A stretch of 40,198 nucleotides of DNA from Tepidanaerobacteraceae bacterium (lineage in GTDB: Bacteria; Bacillota; Thermosediminibacteria; Thermosediminibacterales; Tepidanaerobacteraceae), in the NCBI GenBank assembly GCA_024655905.1, contig JANLFP010000014.1, forward strand, positions 23,518-63,715. Direction: 5' to 3'. Position 1 is the first letter of the stretch; each line of letters begins with the position of its first letter. The position numbers were made by a program, and so were the translations under genes. Shown here piece by piece: positions 1 through 34,033 of the stretch. The notes below the pieces were generated by a model, which ran no database searches, was not told the origin of the DNA, and saw only the letters and a program-made list of their open reading frames with translations.

Positions 1-44
1 GCAATATGGATTTTAAAAGGGAACCGGGTGAAAATCCATATTGC
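1..44 (+). other. Cobalamin-riboswitch-like core inside a perfect inverted repeat
   Basis: Bases 1-14 and 31-44 are exact reverse complements, so a 14-bp stem encloses a 16-base loop. Loop and 3' arm together contain AAAAGGGAA, then CC, then GGGTGAAAATCC. The same core occurs in the bona fide cobalamin riboswitch at 20952-21126 on the other strand. The rest of a B12 riboswitch (the CCCGCCACTGT segment and the B12 box) is not seen downstream, and no plus-strand gene follows within the window. It may be a relic, a variant class cut by the window edge, or chance similarity in a hairpin. Confidence 0.35.
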
Positions 45-141
45 ATTGGATTACCTTTATCGGTGTGGTCTATTAAATTTTCACGCTGCATTGAACAGCA
101 ATATAATATAATGTGATATAAATTGGTCCTCACATCCGAAT

Positions 142-290: not shown

Positions 291-412
291 AAAAGCACCA
301 CCCTTTCAGGCAGTGCTTCCGTTGTTCGGTCGGCGCCGCTTTGATAATACCTTTTTATTGCTTGTCCATCGATTCCATTTTCTATATTATACCAAAATTC
401 GCACATTGTCAA
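291..412 (-). promoter_or_regulatory. Promoter plus conserved hairpin leader, copy 1
   Basis: On the minus strand a TTGACA (407-412) lies 17 bases from TAATAT (384-389), or 15 from an overlapping TATAAT with an upstream TG. About 45 bases further on comes GGCGCCGACCGAACAACGG (about 321-339), then a ten-pair hairpin whose right arm runs into a T-rich tract (about 286-317), which looks like an intrinsic terminator. The same block occurs at 2183-2301, with a matching promoter, and at 20603-20655. It could terminate the SLH gene ending at 473, but having its own promoter suggests an attenuated leader for a gene left of the window. Confidence 0.6.
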
Positions 413-472
413 GAAATCATTTAATAAGAGCTTTTTGTACAGTTGCCTGATGAAGTGTTAAAGCCTTATTCT

Positions 473-2089
473 CTATTCAATCCCCATATATTTCCTCAGC
501 CGAACCACCGCCCAGGAGCACTGCGCACGAGTGGCGGGCTTTTTGGCGTCAAATCCGGGCCATAAAAAGCCGTGATTCTGAGCAGCCCTGATGTATCCCG
601 CCGCCCAATCCTCTTTGCCCTCTTTGAGTGATGAGGCTTCTTCCGCGAGCCCCGCAGCCCTCACCAGCATGGCCATGAGCTGTTCGCCAGTAATGCTTTT
701 CCCGGGCGAGAAGGTTTTTTCGCCGGTGCCGCTGACAAAGCCTTTTTCCGCGCACAGCCCGATGCATCCATCCGCCCAGTGCCCTTCCGGCACGTCGGAA
801 AACAGCTTGGAGCCTTTTTTATCATGGCTCTCTTTCTTCATGCCTAGGCCGTATACCAGGTACTTCGAAAACTCCGCCCTCGTCACAGGCTGTTCCGGAC
901 CGAAGGTGCCGTCGGCCCTGCCCGATAAAACATAGTCGTAAACCAATTCCATGGTCTCGGAAAACCCAAAATCCCCAGGCTTGTAATCCGAAAACAGGTG
1001 TTTTTCCGCTTCCGGACGGTATTTTTCATGCAGCACGTCGTATGCAGCTTTCTTATTGTATGCGTCAGCCATCGCATACAGGGCTTCATATGTAGATATT
1101 CCGTTATCATATACCGGAAGGTTGTCCTCCTCGCTCAGCACATGTGAGAAGCTGCCGTCCGGGAGCTGGAACCGAAGCATGGCGCTCACCGGGTTCCCGC
1201 CGGATGGCTTTGTCCATTCCGGCCCCATGGGATCCTGGCCCAAAAGCGTCAGGGCTTGAATAACCCACGCGCAGCTTTCCGGGTTTTCGGTGCCCCATGA
1301 ATAAAATCCGCCATTGTCAAGCTGTTTTTCTTTTAAAAATTGCAATGCTCTTGCCACATGCGGATTTGACTCATCTTCCCCGAGGATGGCAAACGCCATG
1401 AGAGCCGCGGCAGTCATATCCACGTCCGAATCAACAAGATCGTAATCCGCAGGGTCGTCAAAATACTTCACGTCCCAGGTAAATCCTCCGTCCTTGTGCT
1501 GCTGATTTTCCAGCCACTGCAGGCATTTATCCCTGTTCGGTATGGGTTCGCCAGCACAATGAAGGGCTATTATTCCGAATATATGGGCGTTTACCAAGTC
1601 CTCCCCTACGGGTTCTCCGGTTTTGTTGTCGGCCACCGAGTCTGCAAAATGGCCACTTGGCAGCATCGTATTCTTTACCGTTTCAACCAAGTTTATACCG
1701 CCGAAGTTTCTTGGGTCTTTCCCAGCGGCGCACACTCCGATGATTGTGCGCTGGAAATCGGTGTTCTTTGTCTTGGAAAGCCCGACTCCGTTTTTGACCT
1801 CCTGCTCCCGCCAGTAAGCGCCGTTTTTCACGTCGGCGGTGGTCCATTTGGGGCCGCTAACATCTTCCCCGAATCCGAAAAGCCCCAGAGCAGGCCAGTC
1901 AAGCACACCTTTGAACTGCTCCTTTTTAAATGCATTGTAGTAATAATCGATGGTTTTCTGAGCGGCAGCGCGCACATCCTCCCGGGTAATACTGCTCTGC
2001 GCTGCCTGGATGCTGCCTGTATACGAGATGAAAACAATCATTGCGCACACAAGCACCATAACAGATGCTTTAAACCTTTTCTTTTGCAA
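473..2089 (-). CDS. Secreted alpha/alpha-toroid (prenyltransferase-repeat) protein with C-terminal SLH motifs
   Basis: A 538-residue exported surface protein. The start is TTG at 2089, preceded by GGGGTGAGG. Residues 1-29 are a signal peptide (KKRFK, hydrophobic core, cleavage near IQA). The middle (about 35-360) has helical repeats with QQ..DGGF and LDNGGFYSW signatures, typical of the squalene-cyclase/prenyltransferase/intrinsic-factor alpha-alpha barrel fold. From about 370 to the end are three SLH motifs (GRADGTFGPEQPVTRAEF, then LFSDVPEGHWA, then a final degenerate one), which bind secondary cell-wall polymer. No terpene cyclase active-site motif was recognised. Bacterial proteins of this fold next to DUF4430 proteins resemble halves of eukaryotic cobalamin carriers. 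A corrinoid-binding role is inference; a polysaccharide-related role is the alternative, given the neighbouring cluster. Confidence 0.85.
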   Translation of the reverse strand: MQKKRFKASVMVLVCAMIVFISYTGSIQAAQSSITREDVRAAAQKTIDYYYNAFKKEQFKGVLDWPALGLFGFGEDVSGPKWTTADVKNGAYWREQEVKNGVGLSKTKNTDFQRTIIGVCAAGKDPRNFGGINLVETVKNTMLPSGHFADSVADNKTGEPVGEDLVNAHIFGIIALHCAGEPIPNRDKCLQWLENQQHKDGGFTWDVKYFDDPADYDLVDSDVDMTAAALMAFAILGEDESNPHVARALQFLKEKQLDNGGFYSWGTENPESCAWVIQALTLLGQDPMGPEWTKPSGGNPVSAMLRFQLPDGSFSHVLSEEDNLPVYDNGISTYEALYAMADAYNKKAAYDVLHEKYRPEAEKHLFSDYKPGDFGFSETMELVYDYVLSGRADGTFGPEQPVTRAEFSKYLVYGLGMKKESHDKKGSKLFSDVPEGHWADGCIGLCAEKGFVSGTGEKTFSPGKSITGEQLMAMLVRAAGLAEEASSLKEGKEDWAAGYIRAAQNHGFLWPGFDAKKPATRAQCSWAVVRLRKYMGIE

Positions 2090-2182
2090 CCTTCCTCACC
2101 CCTTTTTCTAATATTTTGTAATATTTAAAGAATATAGTTGTTGTGTGAAAAGCTATCTTGCTGCCGGAGATGACCCTATACC

Positions 2183-2301
2183 AAAAATAAAAGCACCACC
2201 TTTTCAGGCAGTGCTTCCGTTGTTCGGTCGGCGCCGCATTAACAAAAACACAATAAACTTTTCTATATTTTTATATTATATTATAATTCGAAAATCGTCA
2301 A
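2183..2301 (-). promoter_or_regulatory. Promoter plus conserved hairpin leader, copy 2, upstream of the SLH protein gene
   Basis: TTGACG (2296-2301) lies 17 bases before TAATAT (2273-2278) on the minus strand. The transcript would then carry GGCGCCGACCGAACAACGG and a GAAGCACTGCC/GGTGGTGCTT hairpin (about 2190-2216) ending in TTTTATTTTT. The SLH gene starts about 100 bases downstream of that T-run, so the hairpin may be a conditional terminator in its leader. It lies about 125 bases after the stop of the GH18-like gene, so it could instead, or also, end that transcript. Confidence 0.65.
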
Positions 2302-2362: not shown

Positions 2363-3466
2363 TCACCTTCTCCCTGCTTTTTGACTTATAAAATTATTAT
2401 CATATTTCCTTAATATCTGCAATAAATCTAAAGTAGCATCTCCAAGCCCTCCAAGCCTCCACAGTGCTATGTTATGGTAACCGGCCAGTCTGATAGCTGA
2501 AATCCAATTTGACAGCGTAACTTCATCCCCATACCAGACCGTATGCGCTGAATTGTTTCCATCTACGTAATTAAAATATTGACTTCCGCTGTTTTTATCC
2601 CGTACCGGCAAAACACGGTGCTCTTTTGCCAATTCTACAGCCTGTTTTTCCGTTAATGAAGTAACTTTTCCCGTTTCAGACCAGTCAAAACCTCCCGTTG
2701 CAATAGCCATATACTTGTCTCCCGGTACCTGGTTAAATTTTCCTGACAATTTTAAAATGAATGGCGGGTCTGCTTTGGGACCAGGCCCGCTGTTAGTGCC
2801 GTACATATTGTAAGCCATCATGATATATATCGGTCCTTTTGGATACATCTGCTCTTTGATTGGAGCATCGGGTTCAAGCACAATTCTGAGGAATTTGCCT
2901 TTCCTGTGCAATTGTTTATAAAGTTCCGAATAAAAGTCTTTTACGTGTGACCAATCATCATTATTAATATTCTCGTAATCGATTTCTATCCCGGAAAGAT
3001 CATACCTGTCCACAATACTTAATATCTCCTCAATGTGTCTTCTGCGGCTTTCAGGGGTAGCAAGCAATTTTGCAACAATTGCAGGGTCTTTGTGAATTAC
3101 CGAGCCATCCCGATCGAATCTGTCATTGACCAGAGTTATCCCAACAGAGCCGGAATTTATGCCTTGCCTTATATCGTCAATATGCTGCAGCACCTGAAGT
3201 GCATCATCAGTAAAATAAATCCTGCCATTATCGTCCAAATAAGCTGCAAATATCTGTATATGCGAAATCCCACCCCCTGTTTTTTTTAGATCTTCGATGC
3301 CTTCCTCCCACTGCCAGTCCACTATCCATGCAGACAACTCTATTTCTGGTGCTTTCTCCCTTTTAAATATAAATATGCTTCTCAAGATTATTACCATGCC
3401 TGCAATGCAAAAAAACGCTGCGATTGCTAAAAGAATTTTAATTCTTTTATTAGTTGGCTTCATCAC
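2363..3466 (-). CDS. Membrane-anchored GH18-like glycoside hydrolase
   Basis: A 367-residue protein with one N-terminal membrane segment (about 9-29) and an extracellular TIM-barrel-like domain. The segment DLSGIEIDYENI (about 155-166) matches the family 18 signature DGxDxDxE, with Glu in the catalytic position. Downstream MMAYNMYG and ALWRLGG resemble the conserved Y-D/N strand and the last barrel strand of the spore-cortex SleL/YdhD-like GH18 group. In this operon it probably trims or processes the exopolysaccharide made by the PilZ glycosyltransferase, much as PgaB-type hydrolase domains do; that substrate is inferred from context. GTG at 3466 follows GGGGAGA by six bases, and ATG at 3463 is almost equally good. 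Confidence 0.75.
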   Translation of the reverse strand: MMKPTNKRIKILLAIAAFFCIAGMVIILRSIFIFKREKAPEIELSAWIVDWQWEEGIEDLKKTGGGISHIQIFAAYLDDNGRIYFTDDALQVLQHIDDIRQGINSGSVGITLVNDRFDRDGSVIHKDPAIVAKLLATPESRRRHIEEILSIVDRYDLSGIEIDYENINNDDWSHVKDFYSELYKQLHRKGKFLRIVLEPDAPIKEQMYPKGPIYIMMAYNMYGTNSGPGPKADPPFILKLSGKFNQVPGDKYMAIATGGFDWSETGKVTSLTEKQAVELAKEHRVLPVRDKNSGSQYFNYVDGNNSAHTVWYGDEVTLSNWISAIRLAGYHNIALWRLGGLGDATLDLLQILRKYDNNFISQKAGRR

Positions 3467-3560
3467 GCCTATCTCCCCATTATCTTGCTCAATCCTGTTT
3501 CAGAGATATCTTTCGAAAACATGATTTTCCTTCTGACAGCATCATATACGTGGCATGAAT

Positions 3561-5330
3561 TTAATATACATCAATCATCCAGTCAATCATTGAATTGAAC
3601 ATATCCTCGGCCTTTTTTACAACAGCTTGAAGGACATTTATTGTATTGCTGAACAATATGGTTTTATTACCCTTGCCTTGAGTAACTGTGGTGATTCTTA
3701 CATCCTCGAAAACACCGTCGTAAATGTTATCAATTTCATAGTCTTTATTTTTCGGCGGACTGAAAGCCGCCTCAAGCTCAATTCCACCCCGGTGAATACT
3801 TGTATCGATAATCTGATTATTGATAATTGGCTTTAAATCCACATACAGGCTTAGCCTGTCACCCTCCAATGTGATTTCCAGCTTCCGCACATTTTTAATA
3901 TTGGTAGGATATCCTTCTTCTGCAACATTTCCATCAAAGACGCGCTTTGTATACATGGTGGCCTTATTTGCTTTGTAGTCTTCCGCTTCCCATTTTACTT
4001 CATCCAGCCTTTGTTCAGCCAAAAGTTCGGGAGATTGCTCTGCTTTTTTCTGTTCCACCTTTATTTTATTATCCTCCAGCAGCACGCGTATATATGATTG
4101 CTTCTTCCTGTCATAACGCAGATAAATTGCCTGCTTTCCAACCACATTGCCGGCAAGTTTTGCCGTGAGCGTTATATCCCCGTAGTTATCGCTGTTTTTA
4201 AGATACAGCCTGCCCGATTGTGCGGGAGGCGATGTAAGTATAATCTTGTTATCAATGAATTCCGCTGCTCCGCTCAAAAGCTCCCAATGCAGTGCACGTT
4301 TTGCATCTCCTGTTACAAATTCCATTTTCTTTCCGGTATCTTTCTGTATTTTCATTAGCAGGTGATTGGTGTACCAATAGCTCTCAGCCTGAAGCCTTGT
4401 CAGATTGTACAGGCTGCTGTCCTTATCATTATATGCATTCCCCTCTCTAGCAAAATGAATTTTAAACAACTGCTTGATATATTTATCATTCGCCCGCTCT
4501 ACGAGTGGATTCATTCCTTCATACATTGCATTTGCATGCATAATCATATAAACCTGTGGCACAAAGCCCAAAGAACCCATATAAACATTCCTCATAGCCT
4601 TGTAATCCCCGCTAATTCGGGCTTCCATCTCTATCGCGTCTTCTACGGGAATCATGTTCTCATCGCGGATAAAATCCATCAGGTAATGGTTATAATAACC
4701 TATATTCCTTTTATCCTGCAATTCACTTTCATCTTTTGTGCCAATAAAGTTGCCTTCCTTGTCAAAAATATTGATGTATGCCAATCGATACCCGTTGCTC
4801 CCAAGCTCCCAATATCCGGATTTCATCAAAGATAGCATGTCTCTAGGCTGCAAAAATTTATTCCTGCCATTTCCAATATTGATAGCGTAGGAAAGAATAG
4901 TCGCTTTGTAATTATATTTTTCCAATAACGGCTGGGCAAACAGCGCAGAATCATTGCGGCCGTCTTCAAACGCAAGAAAAAGGGCTTTCTCAGGCAGCAT
5001 CTTGCCCTTGCTGTAAAAATCGATAATGTCCTGCTGTGAAATTGTAACATAGCCTTGATCATGCAGCGCTTTAAGATGGCGGTCAAGAAGCCTCTGAGAA
5101 ATCAATTTTGAGTCTCCTGAGCGGCTTACGCCAAAATAGGATATGGCTATAAATCCCTGACTATTTGACCAGCAGATTTTATCAGGCTCTTTGTATCTAT
5201 TTATAGTAAAAACCGTCTTGATAAATAATATAAACAAGGCAAGTAATACCACCCATTCCAATACGGTTCGAATGACTTTCATCCTATCTTTTCTTTTGTA
5301 ATCCAAAGCAAAATGCTGAGCCTGTATCAT
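3561..5330 (-). CDS. Membrane-anchored polysaccharide-deacetylase-like protein, probably catalytically inactive
   Basis: A 589-residue protein with one transmembrane anchor (about 23-45) and an external NodB-like domain (about 60-330), followed by a beta-rich region (about 350-550). The motif usually TFDDGxxD reads AFEDGRND, so the first Asp (general base) is Glu. In the GHEIGSHTxxH position the sequence reads YWELGSNGYRL, so the metal-binding histidines are gone. It is therefore likely a structural or polymer-binding member of the biosynthetic complex rather than an active deacetylase. The start at 5330 is supported by GTGAGG six bases upstream, 21 bases after the glycosyltransferase stop. 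Confidence 0.7.
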   Translation of the reverse strand: MIQAQHFALDYKRKDRMKVIRTVLEWVVLLALFILFIKTVFTINRYKEPDKICWSNSQGFIAISYFGVSRSGDSKLISQRLLDRHLKALHDQGYVTISQQDIIDFYSKGKMLPEKALFLAFEDGRNDSALFAQPLLEKYNYKATILSYAINIGNGRNKFLQPRDMLSLMKSGYWELGSNGYRLAYINIFDKEGNFIGTKDESELQDKRNIGYYNHYLMDFIRDENMIPVEDAIEMEARISGDYKAMRNVYMGSLGFVPQVYMIMHANAMYEGMNPLVERANDKYIKQLFKIHFAREGNAYNDKDSSLYNLTRLQAESYWYTNHLLMKIQKDTGKKMEFVTGDAKRALHWELLSGAAEFIDNKIILTSPPAQSGRLYLKNSDNYGDITLTAKLAGNVVGKQAIYLRYDRKKQSYIRVLLEDNKIKVEQKKAEQSPELLAEQRLDEVKWEAEDYKANKATMYTKRVFDGNVAEEGYPTNIKNVRKLEITLEGDRLSLYVDLKPIINNQIIDTSIHRGGIELEAAFSPPKNKDYEIDNIYDGVFEDVRITTVTQGKGNKTILFSNTINVLQAVVKKAEDMFNSMIDWMIDVY

Positions 5331-5351
5331 AATTCCTCACCCAAAAGTTTC

Positions 5352-7259
5352 TCATGAACTGTGCCAAAACGGCAGTTTGAGTTTTCTTTTTTTGTTTCTT
5401 TCACTCTTTTTTTTCTTTTCCTCAACATCTTGAGGCGTTTCTCTTGTACCCCAGGTGGATTTCCAGAAAGTAACCCATGCAACAGGCATTTGCCAGAGCA
5501 ATACAAACTCATAAAAAACAGCAAAAATTAGTCCGAAAATCCACAGCTTGCTCCTTCGAAAAAGCAAATGTGCAAAACTCATCATCAGCGCCATTAGAAA
5601 GAGCCCCATGATAAATGTTGAGGGAAACACATGATAAACCAAAGGAACATACACGAAATTAAATATCACAACAACTGGCGATGCCACAGGCACAATTAAG
5701 CCAATATAGAAGAACGCAGCCATAAATGGTTCTTTTTTCCATATAAATGTAGCAGCCCGTATCGATTCACGAAGCCATGAACGCTTCCAGCGCATCTGTT
5801 GCTTCAAAAAAACTCTCATGTTTGAAGGTACAATAGTTGAACAAATAGCCGAATCTTGATAATATGTTCTATGAGTCTTTAAAATAAAATTCGTCAAGCT
5901 TCGATCGTCGCCGAATGTGGCCGGGTGTCCCAGAAACTTTTGATGGAGCCATGATTCAGCATTTTTCAACACAAGATCCTTCCGATAGCAGGACAAAGGA
6001 CCGGAAAGACAAGTAACGCTATCGAAAAATGCTTCAGCCGCTTTCATGATACGAAAGGCTATATAATATCTCACAGCCTGCATCTTTGTAATGGAATTGG
6101 TATATTTGTTCTCCACCTCAGTGCGCCCTGACACGCCTCCCATTTTCGGATCTTGGAAAGGCTGCACAAGGTGTTTTATGGCTGTTGGCTCAAGAAAACT
6201 GTCCGAATCCACAAACGCCACCAGGTCATGCCTGGCCAACTTTACTCCATTTATAAGGGCTGACCTCTTGCCCCCGTTTTTTGGCATAAATACGGCTTTC
6301 AAACGATCTTTCGTCAGAAAACGGTCTTCCTCTTTATGAAGATCTTCAATAACCTGCTTAATCCGTTCTGCCGAATTATCTGTGGACTTGTCGTCAACCA
6401 CGATAACTTCCAGTTTGTCAATGGGGTAATCCTGATTGATGCAGCTCAATATGGTACGGTGGATCCATTTTTCCTCGTTAAAGCATGGGATTATTATGGA
6501 AACACCTGGAGTAAACTCAGGGTTTACAGGAACCTCCCTGTATAATGCACCAAAGAAATAGCGCGACAGAAGGAATATAGCAGCGATAATACTGTATAAA
6601 TATAAGCTGATATTATATTTAAAATAGATGATGCTCTCTGCCCGCATGAGCATTACAAGGGCCGTAACAACAAACAAAAAACTGCTGGCCCAATAGATGG
6701 AATATCCCCATCGCTTACGCTGCAAGTAACTCGTCAACGGCTGGGAAAACTCAAATCCCAGCATAATCTTTTGCTGTCCTTCTTTTAAGCTCCACGCCCG
6801 CCGAACCAACCTGGCATCAATATTTACAGCAAACTCAAAACCTTCAGGCATTGTTCCCGGAGGGATATTAAAGTCCATTCTGACTATATCCCCTTCAGAA
6901 AACTCATGTGACTGCTGTTCGAGTTCCACCAATATGCCTGTTGAAGAAATGTCCACTGCCCTTCCTTTCAAGGTTATCTTCTTTTGCTTCTCAGGTATGA
7001 TCAAAACGTCAAAATCCGCAAGATACCTCTGACTGAGCAGGCGTATTTTATTAATATAATAAGGATCACTGCTCTTCCCTTTTGATTCTACAGCTTTACT
7101 CCCTCTACGGTCTATTACCACACGAATCTGTTCGGGATCCGGCACGTATGGTAGTTTGCGCCTGTCTGGCTTTGGAATTGTCAAAACCTCTTCTGACTTA
7201 TTATTTTTTGTTTTTTTCAATATGCGTCTTTTTTCGTTGTGCAACGGCAAAACCCTCAC
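5352..7259 (-). CDS. PilZ-domain processive family 2 glycosyltransferase
   Basis: A 635-residue inner-membrane synthase. Residues about 45-170 form a PilZ domain with RLLSQR and DISSTG (the (D/N)xSxxG motif), which binds c-di-GMP in this family. Two membrane segments follow (about 185-235), then a GT2 domain with SIIIPCFNEE, VVDDKSTDNS, DSDS, GDDRSLTN and the QQMRWKRSW (QxxRW) motif of processive synthases such as PgaC/IcaA, cellulose and hyaluronan synthases, then four C-terminal membrane segments. It most likely polymerises and extrudes a beta-linked exopolysaccharide; with deacetylase-like neighbours, poly-N-acetylglucosamine is the best guess. The sugar cannot be read from sequence. GTG 7259 has a weak ribosome site; TTG 7244 lies eight bases after GTGAGGG and may be the true start. 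Confidence 0.85.
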   Translation of the reverse strand: MRVLPLHNEKRRILKKTKNNKSEEVLTIPKPDRRKLPYVPDPEQIRVVIDRRGSKAVESKGKSSDPYYINKIRLLSQRYLADFDVLIIPEKQKKITLKGRAVDISSTGILVELEQQSHEFSEGDIVRMDFNIPPGTMPEGFEFAVNIDARLVRRAWSLKEGQQKIMLGFEFSQPLTSYLQRKRWGYSIYWASSFLFVVTALVMLMRAESIIYFKYNISLYLYSIIAAIFLLSRYFFGALYREVPVNPEFTPGVSIIIPCFNEEKWIHRTILSCINQDYPIDKLEVIVVDDKSTDNSAERIKQVIEDLHKEEDRFLTKDRLKAVFMPKNGGKRSALINGVKLARHDLVAFVDSDSFLEPTAIKHLVQPFQDPKMGGVSGRTEVENKYTNSITKMQAVRYYIAFRIMKAAEAFFDSVTCLSGPLSCYRKDLVLKNAESWLHQKFLGHPATFGDDRSLTNFILKTHRTYYQDSAICSTIVPSNMRVFLKQQMRWKRSWLRESIRAATFIWKKEPFMAAFFYIGLIVPVASPVVVIFNFVYVPLVYHVFPSTFIMGLFLMALMMSFAHLLFRRSKLWIFGLIFAVFYEFVLLWQMPVAWVTFWKSTWGTRETPQDVEEKKKKSERNKKRKLKLPFWHSS

Positions 7260-7301
7260 TTTTTCTAAGCCGCTATCATACTTGATAATTTTTCAGCCGG
7301 T

Positions 7302-8738
7302 TTATTGTTTCAATTTAAACAAATCAGCCATTTTTACAAAATTATAACCTTTTCTCTTCAGTTTTTCCAGTACTTTCGGAAGGGCTTCCACTGTATTTGT
7401 GCCGTCGAGAATGTGCAGCAGGATAACGCTGCCGTCTTGCGTCTGCTTTAAGATATCACTCACTATATCTTCTGCACTCTTTTTTGTGTCCCAATCAAGT
7501 GCAGTCACATCATACATAACGATTACCGGATATCCAGCAGCAGCAATTGCCCTGGCAGCCGTATCATTAATTACGCCTGTAGGCGGCCTGAAGAGCATTG
7601 TCGGTTTCTGTTGAATGGCTCCCGTGAGCACCTGGTGGGCTTTTACAATATCCTCCTGCAATTCCCTGGGTGTCATAGATGTAACGTCCAAGTGCGCATA
7701 CGAATGATTGGCAACATCATGCCCACCTTCAACAATCGCCCTTGCCAGGTTCGGATTGCTCTCCACCCCTTTGGCGCGAAGAAAAAAAGTAGCCTTCACG
7801 TCATATTTGTCCAAAATATCTAGAATCCTGGTAACTGTTTTGTCGCTGGCCCAATCATCAAAAGTCAATGCGATTTCTTTCTTATCCGTTGAAGCCTTAT
7901 AAATCAACCTATATTTAGCATTTTTATAATCCGGATTAATCTTTGCCGCATCATAACCCGGAATCTCCTCAAGAGGCTTGCGTTCACCCCCTGATTTTAT
8001 CAACTGCTCCAGAGGGATAAGCTTGTAGCCGATGTTATCTGCTGCCCTGGCGATATATCGGATTGCCGGAATAATTTCGGGGTTTATATCCGTATTAAGT
8101 GCAATAATACCGCCCCTGCAAATGAATCTTTCCACATACTCCCCTATTGCTTTTGCGTCTTTCATATCCCAATCCTGCGGATTGATATTGTAGCTCACAA
8201 CCGCCTCCATGCCGGCATGTGCTGCTGCCAGAAGCACATCTTCGTTATAGTCTCCTGATTTAGTCCTCACATAGTGCGGCGTGACGCCCGTCTCCCGCTT
8301 TATAACATCATTGCATAGCTTGATTTCTTTATATATTTGCTCATAGGTGAGGCCGGTCAGGTCAAGCCGGTTAAGGGTATTATTCTCTATCTCATGCCCC
8401 CTGCCCAAGATTTCCCTAGCAATGTACGGCTCTTCAGCCACCCTCATTCCCGGAAGAAAAAAGGTAGCCTTAATCCGGTAGGCATCAAGTTCATCCAGCA
8501 GCCGTTCCATGGTCTCTTTGTCCGCCATTCCGTTAAACGTAAGGGCCAGTTCCTTGCGTGCAGTATAGACCGACTGGATGGCCTTGCATTTGTCTTTCTC
8601 ATACCGGACAATTTCCTGGCTTTTATCCGCCTTTTCTTTGATTTTTTCTTCGTGACTATTTATTTTTTCCGAGTTGCATCCCACAATCGAAGTTACTATG
8701 AGTAATATAAAAATTATTCTAAATATATACTGCTTCAT
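7302..8738 (-). CDS. Lipoprotein with tandem polysaccharide deacetylase (NodB) domains
   Basis: A 478-residue lipoprotein (signal peptide with SIVGC lipobox, Cys21), first gene of the exopolysaccharide operon. It has two NodB domains. The C-terminal one (about 280-475) keeps the catalytic motifs: TFDDWASD, HDVANHSYAH (metal His pair) and RPPTG, with LLHILD near the end. The N-terminal copy (about 60-250) has decayed: TFNG replaces TFDD and HEIENNTLN replaces the two metal histidines, so it is probably inactive and may bind or position polymer. The active domain should remove N-acetyl groups from the exported polymer or from peptidoglycan. The start is ATG preceded by GAGGGTGC. Confidence 0.85.
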   Translation of the reverse strand: MKQYIFRIIFILLIVTSIVGCNSEKINSHEEKIKEKADKSQEIVRYEKDKCKAIQSVYTARKELALTFNGMADKETMERLLDELDAYRIKATFFLPGMRVAEEPYIAREILGRGHEIENNTLNRLDLTGLTYEQIYKEIKLCNDVIKRETGVTPHYVRTKSGDYNEDVLLAAAHAGMEAVVSYNINPQDWDMKDAKAIGEYVERFICRGGIIALNTDINPEIIPAIRYIARAADNIGYKLIPLEQLIKSGGERKPLEEIPGYDAAKINPDYKNAKYRLIYKASTDKKEIALTFDDWASDKTVTRILDILDKYDVKATFFLRAKGVESNPNLARAIVEGGHDVANHSYAHLDVTSMTPRELQEDIVKAHQVLTGAIQQKPTMLFRPPTGVINDTAARAIAAAGYPVIVMYDVTALDWDTKKSAEDIVSDILKQTQDGSVILLHILDGTNTVEALPKVLEKLKRKGYNFVKMADLFKLKQ

Positions 8739-11448: not shown

Positions 11449-12991
11449 GCCTGTAGACCTCCAGTTCCAGCGCCATGAAAACCATGGCTGTCAGTGCGAA
11501 CATGCGGCCGACATCCCGGGCAACGGGATTCATCCCGGCTGCACCTTTTCGAGCAGATCCCTTTCGGTCAAGGAATTCGGCTCCGGTGACGAAGGTTTGG
11601 GGGGGATTTGCTTCAAGGCTTTTCGCCATGCCTTCCGAAAGCCATTTTATAGAGCGGTGAACCAGCACAGGAAAAGCGGGGGTCATGACCATGTTGATTT
11701 TTGAAAAATCTATGGAAGAGATTATCTGCCGCCTGCCGTTTTCCTCTCCGCAGATCATGACGGGCCTTCCATCTGCCAGCAGCATGCTCTTAAAACCTTC
11801 TTTTTGCTTCAGGAAACACCCCCTGTCCGCATATATGCCTGCAAGAACAAGGCCGGACGACATGGAAGAGTTCCCCGGCTGTAAAAGTACCGCATGATCA
11901 AAAGCTTCGCCGCAGTCGCCCTCATCCGGATACAGTTTCCACACGCCGCATTCCTCCGGAAGATGCACTGTGGTCTGCTTTTGGGCCAGCACGAATATGT
12001 CGAAGGTTTTTGTTATGTCGTCGAATGACTCAGCCTTCTCGAAGTGTATCTCTGCCATGGACTTCAGCGCCGCCTCCATATATGGGTTTTCCCCTATCAT
12101 CACAACTTTTGTTTTATATTCATCCCCCAGGGGCAGCACATAGCTGTCGTCTTCAGCCAGCATGTCTGTGCCTATTATGCCCAGCCTGACCATATCCGGA
12201 ATCCGATCCAGCTCAAAGCTTATGTATTGTTCCCCTCCGGCTGGAACGTATGCCCTGCCTATTATTTTCCCGCCCCAATCATCTTCGGCCTTTACGGCAA
12301 TGGTTTTGCCTTTGTCCGAGTAATTTTTCAACCTGCACAAAAGAGTTCGGGAGTAGTAATCGAAACTTGCTCCGGTGATGCCCGCATCGTCCAGCCTGCC
12401 GCCTATTTTTACGGAAGTTGTGCCAAAGTCCAAATCCTTGTCCGTGAACACCACTTTTTCGCCGGGGTAAGTTTCCAGCACTGCTGCTGCTTTTTGCACA
12501 TCCAGGCTATCCGAGGTGCATGCGAGCGCTTGCAGCTCCTTTTGCGCCCTGCTTTTTTCCGCATCCCGCAGATATTCCTCCGCGCCGCTTTTCAGAAGCA
12601 GAAGGCTTACAGCCGCATCAGCCGGCAGGGCTTTTATATATTCCTGCGCCGCGGCCTTCGCTTCCTCAAAGCGCGTTACTCCGTTTTCCCGGGCATTCAT
12701 GGAAATGGAGCCGTCCAGGGCTATAACCACTCTTTTTTCCTGCTCGCCCTTTGTCAGCAGAGGCTTTGCGGAGGACATCACCAGCATCAGCGCGCAGACA
12801 AGCTGAATGACGAGCAGCAGGTTCTTTCGCAGGCGGCTCACGTTAAGACCCGCTTCTTCCACTATCGCTTCATCCCACATTTTTATCCAAGAAACCCTGT
12901 ATTCTGCCGCCTGCTTTTTCCTGAGATAAAAAATTGCAATAATGGCGAGGAAAATTCCGTACAAGAGGTTAAACGGCTGTGCAAAGCTCAT
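11438..12991 (-). CDS. BatA-like membrane-anchored vWA protein
   Basis: A 517-residue protein from ATG 12991, which sits in an ATGA overlap with the DUF58 stop and follows GGGGGTG at good spacing; longer upstream in-frame starts are less likely. It has the BatA-type N-terminus: a membrane segment near residues 8-22, a short cytoplasmic link, and a second segment (about 54-75, LLLVIQLVCALMLVMSSAKP). A vWA domain follows, with DGSISM as MIDAS motif. The second half is a divergent amidotransferase-like or beta region, and a C-terminal membrane segment ends the protein. It is paralogous in layout to the next gene. Its role is probably as a client or effector of the MoxR ATPase encoded two genes upstream. 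Confidence 0.8.
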   Translation of the reverse strand: MSFAQPFNLLYGIFLAIIAIFYLRKKQAAEYRVSWIKMWDEAIVEEAGLNVSRLRKNLLLVIQLVCALMLVMSSAKPLLTKGEQEKRVVIALDGSISMNARENGVTRFEEAKAAAQEYIKALPADAAVSLLLLKSGAEEYLRDAEKSRAQKELQALACTSDSLDVQKAAAVLETYPGEKVVFTDKDLDFGTTSVKIGGRLDDAGITGASFDYYSRTLLCRLKNYSDKGKTIAVKAEDDWGGKIIGRAYVPAGGEQYISFELDRIPDMVRLGIIGTDMLAEDDSYVLPLGDEYKTKVVMIGENPYMEAALKSMAEIHFEKAESFDDITKTFDIFVLAQKQTTVHLPEECGVWKLYPDEGDCGEAFDHAVLLQPGNSSMSSGLVLAGIYADRGCFLKQKEGFKSMLLADGRPVMICGEENGRRQIISSIDFSKINMVMTPAFPVLVHRSIKWLSEGMAKSLEANPPQTFVTGAEFLDRKGSARKGAAGMNPVARDVGRMFALTAMVFMALELEVYRREL

Positions 12992-17190: not shown

Positions 17191-19243
17191 CCTTCACATA
17201 AATCTCCGGAAAAATCACCCTTGAATCGCATTGAATTTTCATAAGCAACGGCCCTTCCGACGTGCTGTGCACCAGCCTTTCGCCCCGAAGCGTGCCGCCG
17301 TCGAAGGCTTCCCACGCAGAATCGCTCCAGTCATATATCTGAATGCTATTATACTCCGAAGGCTCGATGTAAAAATCAATCTCTTCGGCGCAAAATTCCG
17401 GCGGAAGCAGATAATACAGCATAACCTGTCCGGTATTCTGCGGCACGAACTCCTTCCGGCCTAAAGACCATGCCTCACCGCTTGCCAATGCCGCGGGTTT
17501 TATGTAACCCCACGGGAAAAGTATTTTACCGCCATCCCAGGTTAAATTCACATTAAAAACATACAGGGTGCAGGATTTGAGATTTCTCTTTCTTCCGTCC
17601 ACTTCGGCCCCGACCTGTTCCTGCCCAAAACCGAAAAGCCTGCCTCCAGTAGCCCCGTCCTCCAGATTGCCAAAATAGTATTCCAACAGCGCTCTCTCAG
17701 ATGTGCCAAGGCCCGAAAGTCTTTCAACCTCCTGCAGAAAGTTGAAATCTCCCATCCCCCTCAATCCATAATCGAGCCGGTACTTTACCTCCACTTCTTC
17801 CCTACCGTCGATGTCTCCCAGGTTGATAAAGGTATCGCCCAGCACCAGGAAACATTTGTTCAATCTGTATGGAAACGGATTTTTTATGACCCCGGATACA
17901 ATCTCCTGCCCGGCAAGCTTCAGTTCAAATTCTTCCAAATCCGAGTTTTCCGCTGAAGCGCTGAAAACATAATTGGGGCCGTCTCCTGAAAAAACCGCTC
18001 TGCCCTCGCCGGGCATGTATTCGCACGAAGCGTCCGGCGGGCACATAGCCTCCCCCGACGGTATGCCGACGGCACAGGTTTTCCCGCGGGCGGGATATAC
18101 GCCGATCAAAACGTATGATTCAGCGGTATTTTTGCTCCCCCAAAGTTTTACGGCAGCCGATGCCGCAGAGGTATCCCGCAGCCCCGCCCCCAGCGCCGCG
18201 ATGTAAAAGGCGGCGCAAAAGGCCGCTACCACCGCGGAAAAAAACCACTTGCTTTTTTTTGACAAATAAACCGAAAAACACCCCGCTGCAAGATAAAGAA
18301 GCATCAGTAACAGCATTAAATAAAACATCCTGCGCGATGGTCTAAGGCTTTCATCCACCACAGAATATAGGCTCTCTGCTCCGGCGAGTTTTTTTGAAAT
18401 GCTGCCTTTGCCCCACATTCTGCTTATCATGGGAGTTGTTAAATGCTTTTGCACAAGGCTCGCTACGTACTGCGGGTCAGCTTCTTCCAGATCCTGCTGG
18501 ACAAAAACCACCGCTCCCTTTCCCCAAGCAATGGTCGATGTCCCGGGAAACTCAAAAAGCCCTTTCAAATTTTTATAAGCGTACTTTTTCGCGCCTATCA
18601 AAATGCAATTTCCCTTTGAAACCCATCGCTTCAAAGCATTCTGCATCCCCTCATCGAGCCGGGATGCGTCGAAATCGTCAATGATTATTATGTTGAAGCT
18701 GTCCAGTGCTTCATCGGTCAAATCCTTTTCCTCGTCCAGCGCTGACATGAACGTCTTCTGCCCGCCGATAAAAGAAAAATCTGTAGAGCTCAGATAATTG
18801 TACTTTTCAGGCTCATCGCTGAGCACTCCGATGAAAACGCTGCTTTCCGGCAAAACCTCAGGTTTAACAGCCGCCTGCCCAAGAATCCGCCCGTCTTTTT
18901 CAAAGCGGGCTGAAACCTGAATGTCCGGTTTATAGACAGGCGCGAAAAAGCGGATTGTTTTCCTGCTGTCTTCCGGTATTTGCAATGAATATGCATATGA
19001 GTTCCCGCCCGCCTTCACCTTTAAAACGCCATCCGCACCGCCTTCGCCTGCCTCAACTTCCACGGCCACAGGGGTTGTGCAGCCCATTTTGCATTTTCCT
19101 TCAAAACCGGCTTTCACGGATACGCTCATGTCCGGCATTGCCCTGGCGCATGTTTGCAGCGCGGGCCAGAAAAGCACCAGCGCCGCCAGCAGGAACGCCG
19201 TGCATGAGGAAAAGCCCAGCCTTCTTGCAATATTATTCGCCAT
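17162..19243 (-). CDS. Large exported membrane protein with amidotransferase-like domain, MoxR-cluster component
   Basis: A 693-residue protein with a signal peptide (cleavage near ARA-MPD, about residue 35). An N-terminal beta-sandwich is followed by a segment (about 140-290) with NIIIIDDFDASRL and ILIGAKK, like the catalytically silent glutamine-amidotransferase fold in such clusters. Two adjacent membrane segments (about 313-365) and an external beta-rich C-terminus complete it. It begins inside the last codons of the DUF4430 gene (11-base overlap, ATGGCGAATAA), so the two are coupled. It may present the external part of the complex. No enzyme motif was seen. Confidence 0.65.
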   Translation of the reverse strand: MANNIARRLGFSSCTAFLLAALVLFWPALQTCARAMPDMSVSVKAGFEGKCKMGCTTPVAVEVEAGEGGADGVLKVKAGGNSYAYSLQIPEDSRKTIRFFAPVYKPDIQVSARFEKDGRILGQAAVKPEVLPESSVFIGVLSDEPEKYNYLSSTDFSFIGGQKTFMSALDEEKDLTDEALDSFNIIIIDDFDASRLDEGMQNALKRWVSKGNCILIGAKKYAYKNLKGLFEFPGTSTIAWGKGAVVFVQQDLEEADPQYVASLVQKHLTTPMISRMWGKGSISKKLAGAESLYSVVDESLRPSRRMFYLMLLLMLLYLAAGCFSVYLSKKSKWFFSAVVAAFCAAFYIAALGAGLRDTSAASAAVKLWGSKNTAESYVLIGVYPARGKTCAVGIPSGEAMCPPDASCEYMPGEGRAVFSGDGPNYVFSASAENSDLEEFELKLAGQEIVSGVIKNPFPYRLNKCFLVLGDTFINLGDIDGREEVEVKYRLDYGLRGMGDFNFLQEVERLSGLGTSERALLEYYFGNLEDGATGGRLFGFGQEQVGAEVDGRKRNLKSCTLYVFNVNLTWDGGKILFPWGYIKPAALASGEAWSLGRKEFVPQNTGQVMLYYLLPPEFCAEEIDFYIEPSEYNSIQIYDWSDSAWEAFDGGTLRGERLVHSTSEGPLLMKIQCDSRVIFPEIYVKGAYSSHGKK

Positions 19244-20591
19244 AAGGAATATGTATCACCTCGTTTTCTGCTATCACCGCCCCAAAACAGCCGCTTATAG
19301 ATTCGGGATGGTTGAGGATGGTGTCAAAAGCCATTTTATATCCTTCGTCATCCGTGCCGGTGACAAGCCATATGGGATTTAGGCTGCCTATGGTAGCGCC
19401 GTAGGCATAAATGGCCCCGGCCTTGTCATGGCTGCTCACCGCTTTGCCTTTGAAGTTTAAAGCCTGGAGCTTGCCGTCTTCAAATTTGGCGTAAACTCCC
19501 ACCAGCTTGTTTTTGGTATTGATATCCTTGAGATAATCATTCCCCTGAACGAGGCTGTCCCACTTGCCCAGCAAAATGTAGTATTTTTTGGGCGTCTGAA
19601 TTGCAGAAGCATCAAGCTCAGCAATATCCACCTGCTTTACTCCCTTATCTTCAAGACTTTTCTTTAATTTTTCCGCATCTTCTTTGCAACCTTCAGCATA
19701 CATAATCACTGTACCCGGATTTTTGCCACCGTATCCGCCTTTAAAGGGCTGCGGGTATGAGCCTATGATTGCCGGTATGAACATCGTCACGCTCCAGTCG
19801 TGATAATCCCACCATATGACATCGCCCGGCTGAGGCCTGTATTCCGCAACGCCAACAGGCGCCAATATGCCGTTCACCCAATAAAACCAGTCCAGCTTTT
19901 TTCTATCCTTGCCGGTGTAAAAAGTGTAATGGGACTCCAGGCCGTTGATGGCGTTTACAAACCCTCCTCCATAGGCGGTCTGTATGTCCAGGTTCCGGAA
20001 CATTACTTCCATTCCCACTTCGTCTCTAACCAGCCCCACATTTTTGGCAAAAATTTTTTTATGGCCAAAATCCCGGGTGACTATTAAATCCACTTTATAC
20101 GGGCTTTCTATATCGCCCGTCGCTTTGTATTCCCGGGAATTTTCAGACGCAGGGGTGCCCTCCTTGTATTTCACCTCTCCCTGCACCGGGCCCTTGTAGC
20201 CTTTATATATTGTTGCGGCATCAGGCTGAACCTCAGTTTTTGCTGTGGAACTGGCTTTGTTATCCGATTTTTTATCCGAGGGCTGCTCTTTATTTTGCGG
20301 TCCAGCTGGATTTTTTGAGATATCCTGTTTTTCGGGCGATTTTTGTTCTGGGGAGTCTTTCACGTCGGAATCTCGCACACCGCCTAATTCCTCGACTTCT
20401 TTTTTGTCCGAGTCCCTCAAAGTTGTTTGGCCGGGTTCAACAGCGCCTCCGACTTCGGAAGTCGCGACCCGTTCATCTTCGCCGATGTTGGTGACTACCC
20501 TGGGCCTGTCCTGCCCGCAGGCAGAAATCATCGCCAAAATCAAAAGGGAAATCAACAGAAAAGTTGAAATGCTTTTAAGCCTTTGGCTCAT
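19233..20591 (-). CDS. DUF4430 (transcobalamin C-terminal-like) lipoprotein
   Basis: A 452-residue lipoprotein. ATG 20591 follows GGAGGTGCAGTTG; nine extra residues upstream in frame overlap the leader hairpin and are rejected. The lipobox is ISAC (Cys about 25), then a low-complexity Lys/Glu/Ser/Pro stalk to about 150. A DUF4430 domain (about 175-290) has DWFYWVNG and RPQPGDVIWWDYHDW. DUF4430 is the fold of the C-terminal cobalamin-gripping domain of intrinsic factor and transcobalamin. The remaining 160 residues form an unassigned alpha/beta domain. The operon starts with a cobalamin riboswitch, so this is a good candidate surface corrinoid-binding protein. No ligand contacts can be verified from sequence. 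Confidence 0.8.
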   Translation of the reverse strand: MSQRLKSISTFLLISLLILAMISACGQDRPRVVTNIGEDERVATSEVGGAVEPGQTTLRDSDKKEVEELGGVRDSDVKDSPEQKSPEKQDISKNPAGPQNKEQPSDKKSDNKASSTAKTEVQPDAATIYKGYKGPVQGEVKYKEGTPASENSREYKATGDIESPYKVDLIVTRDFGHKKIFAKNVGLVRDEVGMEVMFRNLDIQTAYGGGFVNAINGLESHYTFYTGKDRKKLDWFYWVNGILAPVGVAEYRPQPGDVIWWDYHDWSVTMFIPAIIGSYPQPFKGGYGGKNPGTVIMYAEGCKEDAEKLKKSLEDKGVKQVDIAELDASAIQTPKKYYILLGKWDSLVQGNDYLKDINTKNKLVGVYAKFEDGKLQALNFKGKAVSSHDKAGAIYAYGATIGSLNPIWLVTGTDDEGYKMAFDTILNHPESISGCFGAVIAENEVIHIPYGE

Positions 20592-20602
20592 CAACTGCAC
20601 CT

Positions 20603-20655
20603 CCAAAAAATAAAGCACCGTCTATTTCAGACAGTGCTTCCGTTGTTCGGTCAGC
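20603..20655 (-). promoter_or_regulatory. Conserved hairpin leader, copy 3, upstream of the DUF4430 gene
   Basis: Lies between the DUF2292 stop (20661) and the DUF4430 ribosome site. It has GACCGAACAACGG as in the copies at 291 and 2183, then a GAAGCACTGTC/GACGGTGCTT hairpin and TTATTTTTT, which merges with GGAGGTG. It has TTGACA just upstream but no matching -10, so it probably acts as an internal attenuator that could lower expression of the distal genes. The stem has compensating base changes relative to the other copies, so the structure is conserved. Confidence 0.6.
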
Positions 20656-20660
20656 ATTTG

Positions 20661-20819
20661 TCAAAGTTTTATCGACTTTTTTATTTCCTCGATCCGCACA
20701 GGCTGCTTGTCCTGTATAAATATCTTGATCTCGCCGTAATTTATCTCCCGAAGAAAGCTCAGCAGCCTTTTTTCCTTGTCGGTCAGCGCACCCTTGGCCA
20801 ATTCGTCCCTATCATTCAT
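20661..20819 (-). CDS. YezD/DUF2292 family small protein
   Basis: A 52-residue protein from ATG 20819, preceded by AGAAGGG. The sequence TDKEKRLLSFLREINYGEIK, followed by IFIQDKQPVRIEEIKK, fits the short YezD-like DUF2292 family: a helix followed by a beta-hairpin with the Ile-Gln-Asp turn. Its function is not established; the family is often seen next to sulfur, metal or cofactor genes. Its ATGAATGA start overlaps the end of a 32-codon ORF. It is the second reading frame after the cobalamin riboswitch. Confidence 0.8.
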   Translation of the reverse strand: MNDRDELAKGALTDKEKRLLSFLREINYGEIKIFIQDKQPVRIEEIKKSIKL

Positions 20820-20910
20820 GGAATCCCTTCTTGCCGCAATTATGCCTTTTTCTCGGTGCGCCGCAATCCAGCAGGCTTGTTTTTTTTACATCTCTTTTCG
20901 TACATGCCAT
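20812..20910 (-). CDS. 32-residue cysteine-containing small ORF behind the riboswitch
   Basis: ATG 20910 is preceded by GGGAGGGGG at seven bases, the strongest ribosome site in the operon. The product (MACTKRDVKKTSLLDCGAPR, then a basic 12-residue tail) has Cys at 3, 16 and 25. Its stop overlaps the start of the DUF2292 gene (ATGAATGA), so translation would be coupled. It may be a leader peptide or a real small metal-binding protein. No family is recognised. Confidence 0.45.
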   Translation of the reverse strand: MACTKRDVKKTSLLDCGAPRKRHNCGKKGFHE

Positions 20911-20951
20911 TGCAAAACCCCCTCCCTATCATCCGTAGAGTTTTGAGGTGC

Positions 20952-21126
20952 AAAAAACAGGCAGGTCTTCTGGCTCGAGCTTCATCGCCCTTTCCGCCTT
21001 CCCGGTTGCCCAGTGGCGTTTTGGAAAAGAGCTCCTCTCTCACAGCGGCGGGACCGCGCGGGATTTTCACCCGACTTCCCTTTTCACTGGCCATGGCCCA
21101 ACTACCCACGCCGGCACCTGTTTTCT
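20952..21126 (-). promoter_or_regulatory. Cobalamin riboswitch
   Basis: On the minus strand the core AAAAGGGAAGTCGGGTGAAA is followed by ATCCCGCGCGGTCCCGCC, then GCTGTGA, a variable arm, GCCACTGG, and the B12 box GAGCCAGAAGACCTGCCTG near 20961-20978. AAACAGG at the 5' end pairs with CCTGTTT at the 3' end to close P1. It should bind adenosyl- or methylcobalamin and repress the operon when B12 is plentiful. A CAAAAC/GTTTTG pair near the ribosome site of the 32-codon ORF hints at translational rather than terminator control. Confidence 0.93.
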
Positions 21127-21139
21127 AAATTTCAAATAT

Positions 21140-21168
21140 ATGATATACCAACCATTTTTTGTTGTCAA
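21140..21168 (-). promoter_or_regulatory. Promoter of the cobalamin-riboswitch operon
   Basis: TTGACA (21163-21168) and TATCAT (21140-21145) with 17-base spacing on the minus strand; the transcript would start about ten bases before the riboswitch P1 stem. The gene-free interval 21171-21520 otherwise holds the plus-strand Pho box and promoter described separately. Confidence 0.8.
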
Positions 21169-32927: not shown

Positions 32928-34033
32928 CTTCATCACTCCCTATTATATCCATTTAATTCTTATTTTTATCATTATTCATAAATTGCAATCACTTAGACTT
33001 TTTTGTCTCTAGAAAACGTTTGACCAATAACAATATTACATTAATATTGAGTCCTCGTAAACCTATACCGAAAATATAAATATAAAGAAATATTTTCATT
33101 GTCTGTCGGTGAAGGGTTTTGCGTCATGAACGTCTACACCAAATATAACAAACTTCATTCAAAACTATTCAAAACCAGCTCAACTATCATTAAGGTCCAT
33201 TACCCAGAATGGAAACGAAGGACAGCATGAGCGGTTTCAATTCCTCTTAGGGAGGCTAAAAACGCTTCTGGGAAGAAACAATACCGGAGTTCATTACTTG
33301 TTTCAATTCCTCGTAGGGAGGCTAAAAACCCTTGTCTATAAACTCCTGATACGGCAGCTTCTCCGCGTTTCAATTCCTCGTAGGGAGGCTAAAAACAGAA
33401 TCTCCGCCAGGTAATTTACGAAATCCAACTGAGTTTCAATTCCTCGTAGGGAGGCTAAAAACCTGCCGCAAAAGGGAAAAAGATATTATTCATATCCCGG
33501 TTTCAATTCCTCGTAGGGAGGCTAAAAACCCTTGGGAAGAAAAACGATGCATCGGGCGTCTTTGCTAGTTTCAATTCCTCGTAGGGAGGCTAAAAACTTT
33601 GAAGAGTTGTACTTAGCCCATTATAGTTGTAGCTGTTTCAATTCCTCGTAGGGAGGCTAAAAACTTTACCCAATTAATTTTCGGTGTTTGCCAAGCCATC
33701 GTTTCAATTCCTTGTAGGGAGGCTAAAAACTTTCCAGCGTGGAAGCGTATACATATAACCCGCCCTGTTTCAATTCCTCGTAGGGAGGCTAAAAACGGGG
33801 GGAGTGTCTTAAATTGTTGCGTTCTCCACATAGTTTCAATTCCTCGTAGGGAGGCTAAAAACAAATGTATCATGCTTTTGTTGCTTTTTCCAAAGAGGTT
33901 TCAATTCCTCGTAGGGAGGCTAAAAACTCCGTCTGCACTCGCATATCTACATGGACTATTTATGCTTTCAATTCCTCGTAGGGAGGCTAAAAACCTTAAA
34001 TTGATGTCTATGTGACGCCATAAGTATATAAAA

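Follow-up and report, generated by a model that had tools for sequence, protein, structure and literature searches.

A leader hairpin that competes with an intrinsic terminator, and DUF2292 (YezD) as its putative antiterminator, in a Tepidanaerobacteraceae bacterium and other Bacillota

We analyzed a 40,198-nucleotide (nt) stretch of the genome of a Tepidanaerobacteraceae bacterium (contig JANLFP010000014.1, positions 23,518 to 63,715; this whole stretch is called the window), in which an initial annotation had noticed a conserved leader with an intrinsic terminator occurring three times. All three copies consist of GCYGACCGAACAACGGAAGCAC followed by an intrinsic terminator and lie on the minus strand. 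The copies and the genes, promoters and riboswitches around them are as follows, the promoters having been placed by a consensus scan only.

1-109, minus strand: part of a second cobalamin riboswitch (RF00174, 58.9 bits), extending left of the window (L004 12398-12627)
285-336, minus strand: copy 1 of the element, with the core GCGCCGACCGAACAACGGAAGCAC at 336-313 and a terminator hairpin with its U-run at 320-291
384-412, minus strand: promoter of copy 1, TTGACA-17-TAATAT
473-2089, minus strand: putative target gene for an alpha-alpha toroid (prenyltransferase/terpene-cyclase-like) protein with S-layer homology (SLH) domains
2183-2234, minus strand: copy 2, in the leader of the SLH/toroid gene, with its terminator at 2218-2189
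2273-2301, minus strand: promoter of copy 2, TTGACG-17-TAATAT
19233-20591, minus strand: putative target gene for a DUF4430 (transcobalamin C-terminal-like domain) protein, ATG start
20605-20657, minus strand: copy 3, between the DUF2292 and DUF4430 genes, with its terminator at 20640-20612
20661-20819, minus strand: DUF2292 (YezD-like) gene of 52 amino acids (aa; PF10055, E 1.5e-7), proposed trans-acting antiterminator
20943-21136, minus strand: cobalamin riboswitch upstream of DUF2292 (RF00174, 119.5 bits)
21140-21168, minus strand: promoter of the riboswitch-DUF2292-DUF4430 operon, TTGACA-17-TATCAT

The 21-mer GACCGAACAACGGAAGCACTG has the same letters in copies 1, 2 and 3. With up to three mismatches allowed, no further copy was found in the 3.2-Mb genome, and the reversed control pattern gave no match in the same search. 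Because there are just three genome matches and none for the reversed control, a chance origin of the three copies is excluded. Weak R1 matches in the same genome (L017-L019), like those in G017, where the core is absent, were discounted as ordinary terminators. The initial annotation was accurate on the three conserved copies, on stems that run into T-rich sequence (all three have terminator-like hairpins with U-runs) and on the promoters of copies 1 and 2, with their -35, 17-base spacer and TAATAT. Copy 3 lacks a separate promoter, and the closest one, at 21168-21140, belongs to the cobalamin riboswitch; the operon is ordered promoter, cobalamin riboswitch, DUF2292 gene, copy 3, DUF4430 gene. 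The DUF2292 gene just before copy 3, which was absent from the earlier account, has its stop codon 3 nt before the element, and its product passes the Pfam gathering score for PF10055 (31.3 bits, cut-off 22). Between the riboswitch and this gene, and overlapping its start, lies a 32-aa open reading frame (ORF) with three Cys (MACTKRDVKKTSLLDCGAPRKRHNCGKKGFHE; 20812-20910, minus strand), a possible small protein or leader peptide.

The gene left of the window, which had been suspected of being a further surface gene controlled by the element, is not an ordinary one: beyond copy 1 come the second cobalamin riboswitch, a second DUF2292 gene and then a fourth, variant element, GCCGACCGGACCACCGGAGGC, at about -485 to -510 in window coordinates. 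This left riboswitch (window 1-109, L004 about 12398-12627) is broken by 10 N and an inverted piece, probably an assembly gap. The sister species has four copies in a matching cluster, with an intact riboswitch after one of the corresponding elements. At L004 11750-12010, also left of the window, there is an SNF2-type helicase gene where the sister species has a DUF4430 gene (L012 5732-6538), which comes after the variant element in that species. DUF4430 is found C-terminally in vertebrate transcobalamins (PMC4350170). Because of this and of the neighboring cobalamin riboswitches, we suggest that the toroid and DUF4430 surface proteins are probably cobalamin-capture proteins.

The core of the element is a 25-nt hairpin composed of a stem P1 (3-5 bp), an asymmetric GA/A internal loop, a second stem P2 (3-4 bp) and an A-rich loop of 4-5 nt (AAAA, ACAA, ACCA, AACAA and similar). 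The general form, UGACC(A/G)GA-A/C-AAC(U/C)GGAGGC plus terminator, is found 3′ of DUF2292 genes in other families, and the window copies, outlying members of this widespread element, are of a variant type with a 3-bp P2 (CCG-AACAA-CGG). Compensating stem changes, which the initial annotation had reported, have thin support in the three window copies, where a C-G to U-A replacement is the only clear double change and two further changes affect one side alone, and strong support when 67 distinct related sequences are compared. Among these, standard pairs occupy 90.5% of the paired cells, double-sided changes occur at 7/9 pairs, both stems covary, and 98 cells are changed on both sides compared with 37.8 in shuffles. 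The covariation score is 0.421, compared with 0.222 for the shuffles (0/500 as high) and at most 0.198 for slid versions. P2 takes the forms CCAG/CUGG, CCGG/CCGG, CUGG/CCAG, CUAG/CUAG, UCAG/CUGA, UCGG/CCGA, UUAG/CUAA and GCAG/CUGC. Pattern matches in Neorhizobium, Paeniglutamicibacter, Virgisporangium, a Rhizobiaceae and a Planctomycetota metagenome-assembled genome (MAG) had a weak score or none and were attributed to chance.

Duplication of a plain terminator or repeat element would account for copies 1 and 2, which look duplicated and have a common promoter sequence. However, this is barely credible in view of the covariation over 67 sequences, the conserved position relative to DUF2292 and the retention of the 21-nt core in unrelated MAGs though the stems differ, with three such copies in MAG A05DMB11 and three in Peptococcaceae MAG nzgw226. 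The element loci of both MAGs also hold cobalamin riboswitches and DUF2292, and those of A05DMB11 hold DUF4430 and toroid genes as well. As the initial annotation had supposed, no known riboswitch class was recognized: at lax settings (E up to 5-10), Rfam gave no match to the element at the three copies, in L004 or at six related loci. The element is an undescribed RNA that matches no Rfam family, and a variant of the cobalamin riboswitch was rejected, the Rfam matches being separate neighboring riboswitches.

Downstream of the hairpin, a U-run is present in 87/87 copies examined. By a lenient overlap criterion, the 3′ strand of P1 lies within the 5′ arm of the terminator stem in 86/87, compared with a mean of 40 and a maximum of 54 for shuffled downstream sequence; these structure counts exclude L094, L129 and L131, which have no terminator and are apparently in coding sequence. 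Because the 3′ strand of P1 doubles as the terminator 5′ arm, hairpin and terminator are mutually exclusive, and the element has the two alternative structures of an attenuator, one of them an intrinsic terminator with a U-run. The earlier idea of a regulated attenuator, with more conserved bases than a plain terminator needs, is thereby supported. Since the conserved part is the hairpin and not the terminator loop, the hairpin is probably the recognized form. DUF2292 might nevertheless bind the leader and promote termination, as negative autoregulation; geometry alone does not give the direction, and nzgw226 has one copy upstream and one downstream of DUF2292. However, the conserved, covarying structure is the competitor of the terminator, whereas the terminator itself is variable, and if a protein recognizes the conserved hairpin, antitermination is therefore to be expected. 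We consider the promotion of termination quite improbable.

In 43/87 copies, the element lies directly 3′ of a DUF2292 gene, mostly at no more than 30 nt, and in 37 of these 43 the stop codon is within 28 nt of the element, at times overlapping it. Such proximity would suit attenuation by the ribosome, in which translation of the DUF2292 ORF and the stop codon beside P1 choose between hairpin and terminator. However, an immediately preceding DUF2292 ORF is lacking at the other 44/87 copies, among them copies 1 and 2 of the window, and DUF2292 is a conserved protein domain, unlike a variable leader peptide, which makes this mechanism very unlikely. Copies away from DUF2292 are, on the other hand, as expected of a regulon. 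The initial annotation had proposed a look at which genes follow the element. These are mostly sulfur-assimilation genes, with DUF4430 and toroid genes in this lineage: sulfate adenylyltransferase (Sat), cysteine synthase (CysK), CysH and a probable adenosine 5′-phosphosulfate reductase (AprA), and further sulfonate-type ATP-binding cassette (ABC) transporters, MetK, PdxS, threonine-synthase-like and nitrogenase-like proteins and one ThiS-like protein (L103), some of them named by eye from sequence. Its phrase that the element links surface genes is therefore too narrow, the link being cobalamin capture together with DUF2292 and the targets elsewhere being mostly in sulfur assimilation. In two genomes, G077 (L140, L141) and G157 (L136), otherwise sulfur-related regulons include nitrogenase-like and FeMo-cofactor-type proteins downstream of the element; these proteins may be sulfur-salvage systems of the methylthio-alkane reductase type.

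A metabolite riboswitch is often found ahead of DUF2292, an S-adenosylmethionine (SAM) riboswitch in sulfur operons and a cobalamin riboswitch in the lineage of the window. A SAM riboswitch lies upstream of DUF2292 in 9/20 loci tested, and in Cytobacillus spongiae the order is SAM riboswitch, YezD, element, CysH, transporter, Sat, CysC. CymR-like boxes were seen, by eye only, near other DUF2292 promoters. These gene neighborhoods suggest that the element controls mostly sulfur assimilation across Bacillota and cobalamin capture in this lineage.

The occurrence of the element follows that of DUF2292. Within the class of the window, PF10055 is found only in G000, G001 and G005, which are the genomes with credible elements. 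We ran R2, a model of the general element built from 8 sequences, on 299 phylum genomes that had been scored for PF10055 beforehand. DUF2292 was present in 23/28 genomes with a match at E ≤ 1e-4 versus 22/271 others (p = 2e-17), and in 17/22 versus 22/271 after removal of the six seed genomes (p = 6e-13). Across 150 Bacillales genomes that formed a second, separate set, it was present in 39/39 with an element at E ≤ 1e-3 versus 27/111 others (p = 1.5e-18); because related genomes are not independent, all these p-values serve as a guide only. Additionally, when Bacillales loci were chosen by DUF2292 alone, the element was near the gene in 25/29, many of which had a CysH-like gene next (read by eye). 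In G005, of the same family as the window (L023/L070), a DUF2292 gene and a general element lie inside a phage-like region, where the element is directly 5′ of a phrog_36-type transcriptional regulator, as if a phage used the switch; neither copy 3 nor the G005 DUF2292 had a match in a phage collection.

This association bears on whether the element is instead a riboswitch that senses a small molecule, either a sulfur metabolite or, in this lineage, a corrinoid, with DUF2292 merely traveling along. The metabolic coherence of the downstream genes (Sat, CysK, CysH, AprA, sulfonate-type ABC transporters, MetK) would fit such a sensor, and the HMP-PP riboswitch is a precedent for very small terminator-embedded aptamers (PMC6478431). 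However, the element is almost missing from DUF2292-free genomes, and DUF2292 is mostly upstream of the element and therefore not under its control. Moreover, the hairpin is alike though the target pathways differ (sulfur versus cobalamin), many of the operons already have a SAM or cobalamin riboswitch, and 25 nt with a 4-5-nt loop is small for an aptamer. We therefore regard a small-molecule riboswitch as unlikely. The narrower idea that the element itself senses cobalamin was dropped because related copies are mostly at sulfur genes.

DUF2292 proteins match PF10055 only. They are stand-alone proteins of 42-90 aa or tandems of two domains, without a sensor domain, and the tandem proteins (L067, L099, L101, L102, L103) have a common C-terminal tail ending in GDGI or GEGI. 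AlphaFold models DUF2292 as a small helix-strand-strand (alpha-beta-beta) unit that is repeated in the tandem proteins. No sequence relatives were found among solved structures, and Foldseek gave no match at E below 0.001. VIA-align rows, all with Z below 5, were mostly ATP-grasp enzymes and look like a common arrangement. In the open-access literature, DUF2292 is mentioned in just two papers and no functional assignment of YezD/DUF2292 was found, supplementary motif lists and subscription papers being outside the scope of that search.

Overall, the hairpin structure, the competition between hairpin and terminator, the DUF2292 association and the riboswitch context are established computationally, and we provide a putative mechanism. 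Binding of the hairpin by DUF2292, antitermination rather than termination, and a relay are most likely what lies behind these data, and we think it probable that DUF2292 acts as an antiterminator that carries the riboswitch signal in trans. In the hairpin form, the terminator 5′ arm would be sequestered and RNA polymerase would read through; otherwise the more stable terminator would form and transcription would end before the gene. DUF2292 would bind and stabilize the hairpin and so prevent the terminator. In this genome, low B12 would permit DUF2292 production through the B12-sensing riboswitch, after which the protein would open copy 3 in the operon that encodes it and also, in trans, copy 1 and copy 2 (the latter with a promoter and no riboswitch), so that the toroid and DUF4430 surface proteins would be switched on together. 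Elsewhere in Bacillota, sulfur operons often have this module downstream of a SAM riboswitch or of a promoter that bears a CymR-like box.

Several observations weigh against this mechanism. P1 is weak in copies 1 and 2, with a C-A mismatch at the inner pair, and copy 2 lacks a riboswitch of its own, no Rfam match being found between its promoter and the SLH/toroid gene. Convincing elements occur with no DUF2292 match in G105, G227 and G268 (in the last two, the element is near a contig end), and about half of the DUF2292-positive genomes of the wide sample, including the 6-7 Mb genomes of family f27, are without a strong element. Model confidence for DUF2292 is low to moderate (predicted local distance difference test 62 for the single domain, about 80-86 for the folded part of the tandem), and structure and fold searches returned no solved fold supporting RNA binding. 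We lean slightly toward regarding DUF2292/YezD as a new class of minimal stand-alone antiterminator, whose synthesis is controlled by SAM or B12 riboswitches and which relays the signal in trans to many operons that carry the 25-nt hairpin alone. If this is true, a riboswitch acting in cis comes to stand at the top of a regulon, which would be a simple route to controlling distant operons. It would also assign a function to DUF2292 (YezD) and add a family of protein-dependent antiterminators, in Bacilli and Clostridia, that governs sulfur assimilation and, here, cobalamin capture.

Two other regions of the window were noted. Between copy 2 and a VWA gene, positions 2363-8738 hold GH18, PgaB-like, PilZ-glycosyltransferase and polysaccharide deacetylase genes; this block has been inserted or lost, since in the sister species (L013) the toroid and VWA genes are immediate neighbors. 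Two CRISPR arrays with a common repeat (RF01315) lie 1.9 kb apart at 33234-33927 and 35817-40155, with more than 70 repeats together.

ANTAR, CAT/BglG (CAT, co-antiterminator) and LoaP are known antitermination systems on leader hairpins, and a factor of one of these types might use the element in place of DUF2292. However, the tie to DUF2292 is left unexplained by all of them. No ANTAR match was found in the genome itself, though the search control gave no match anywhere either, and no CAT domain was reported in the regulator with a PTS (phosphotransferase system) regulation domain (PRD) at L004 311-2488. Together with the differences in RNA described below, this makes another factor highly improbable.

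With DUF2292 kept as the candidate, the element can be set beside these systems. Like the ribonucleic antiterminator (RAT) hairpins of BglG, SacY and LicT, it is a short hairpin in the leader, interrupted by an asymmetric internal loop and overlapping the 5′ arm of a terminator. However, a RAT contains two such loops in its stem (PMC3369936) and the element has one, GA/A, so it is not a RAT. BglG and LicT fuse CAT to PTS-sensing PRD domains, in contrast to the DUF2292 proteins, which match PF10055 alone and by sequence fall outside that family, and no sequence relation between DUF2292 and the BglG/SacY/LicT antiterminators was found. The proposed protein-dependent antitermination also resembles that of the ANTAR/EutV dual-hairpin attenuators, and EutV systems likewise operate beside a B12 riboswitch. 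ANTAR targets, however, are dual hairpins with hexaloops and A1 and G4 (PMC8934654), which are not seen at the single hairpin with its 4-5-nt A-rich loop. The LoaP/dfn system, like the one proposed here, has a protein that is brought in by a leader hairpin and overrides terminators, but LoaP is a NusG paralogue that uses a UNCG-type hairpin and acts on several terminators (PMC12691694), and the loops of the element are A-rich. The thiS motif (HMP-PP riboswitch) is similarly a small conserved motif over a terminator stem, often in tandem with another riboswitch (PMC6478431). In contrast to the element, it senses a thiamin precursor at thiamin (HET-P) genes with no trans-acting protein, whereas the genes downstream of the element are mainly those of sulfur assimilation or DUF4430/toroid genes. 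Cobalamin (RF00174) and SAM (RF00162) riboswitches share leaders and operons with the element, yet they are separate elements. Protein-dependent antitermination at leader hairpins is already known; what is new here is this RNA and its candidate protein.
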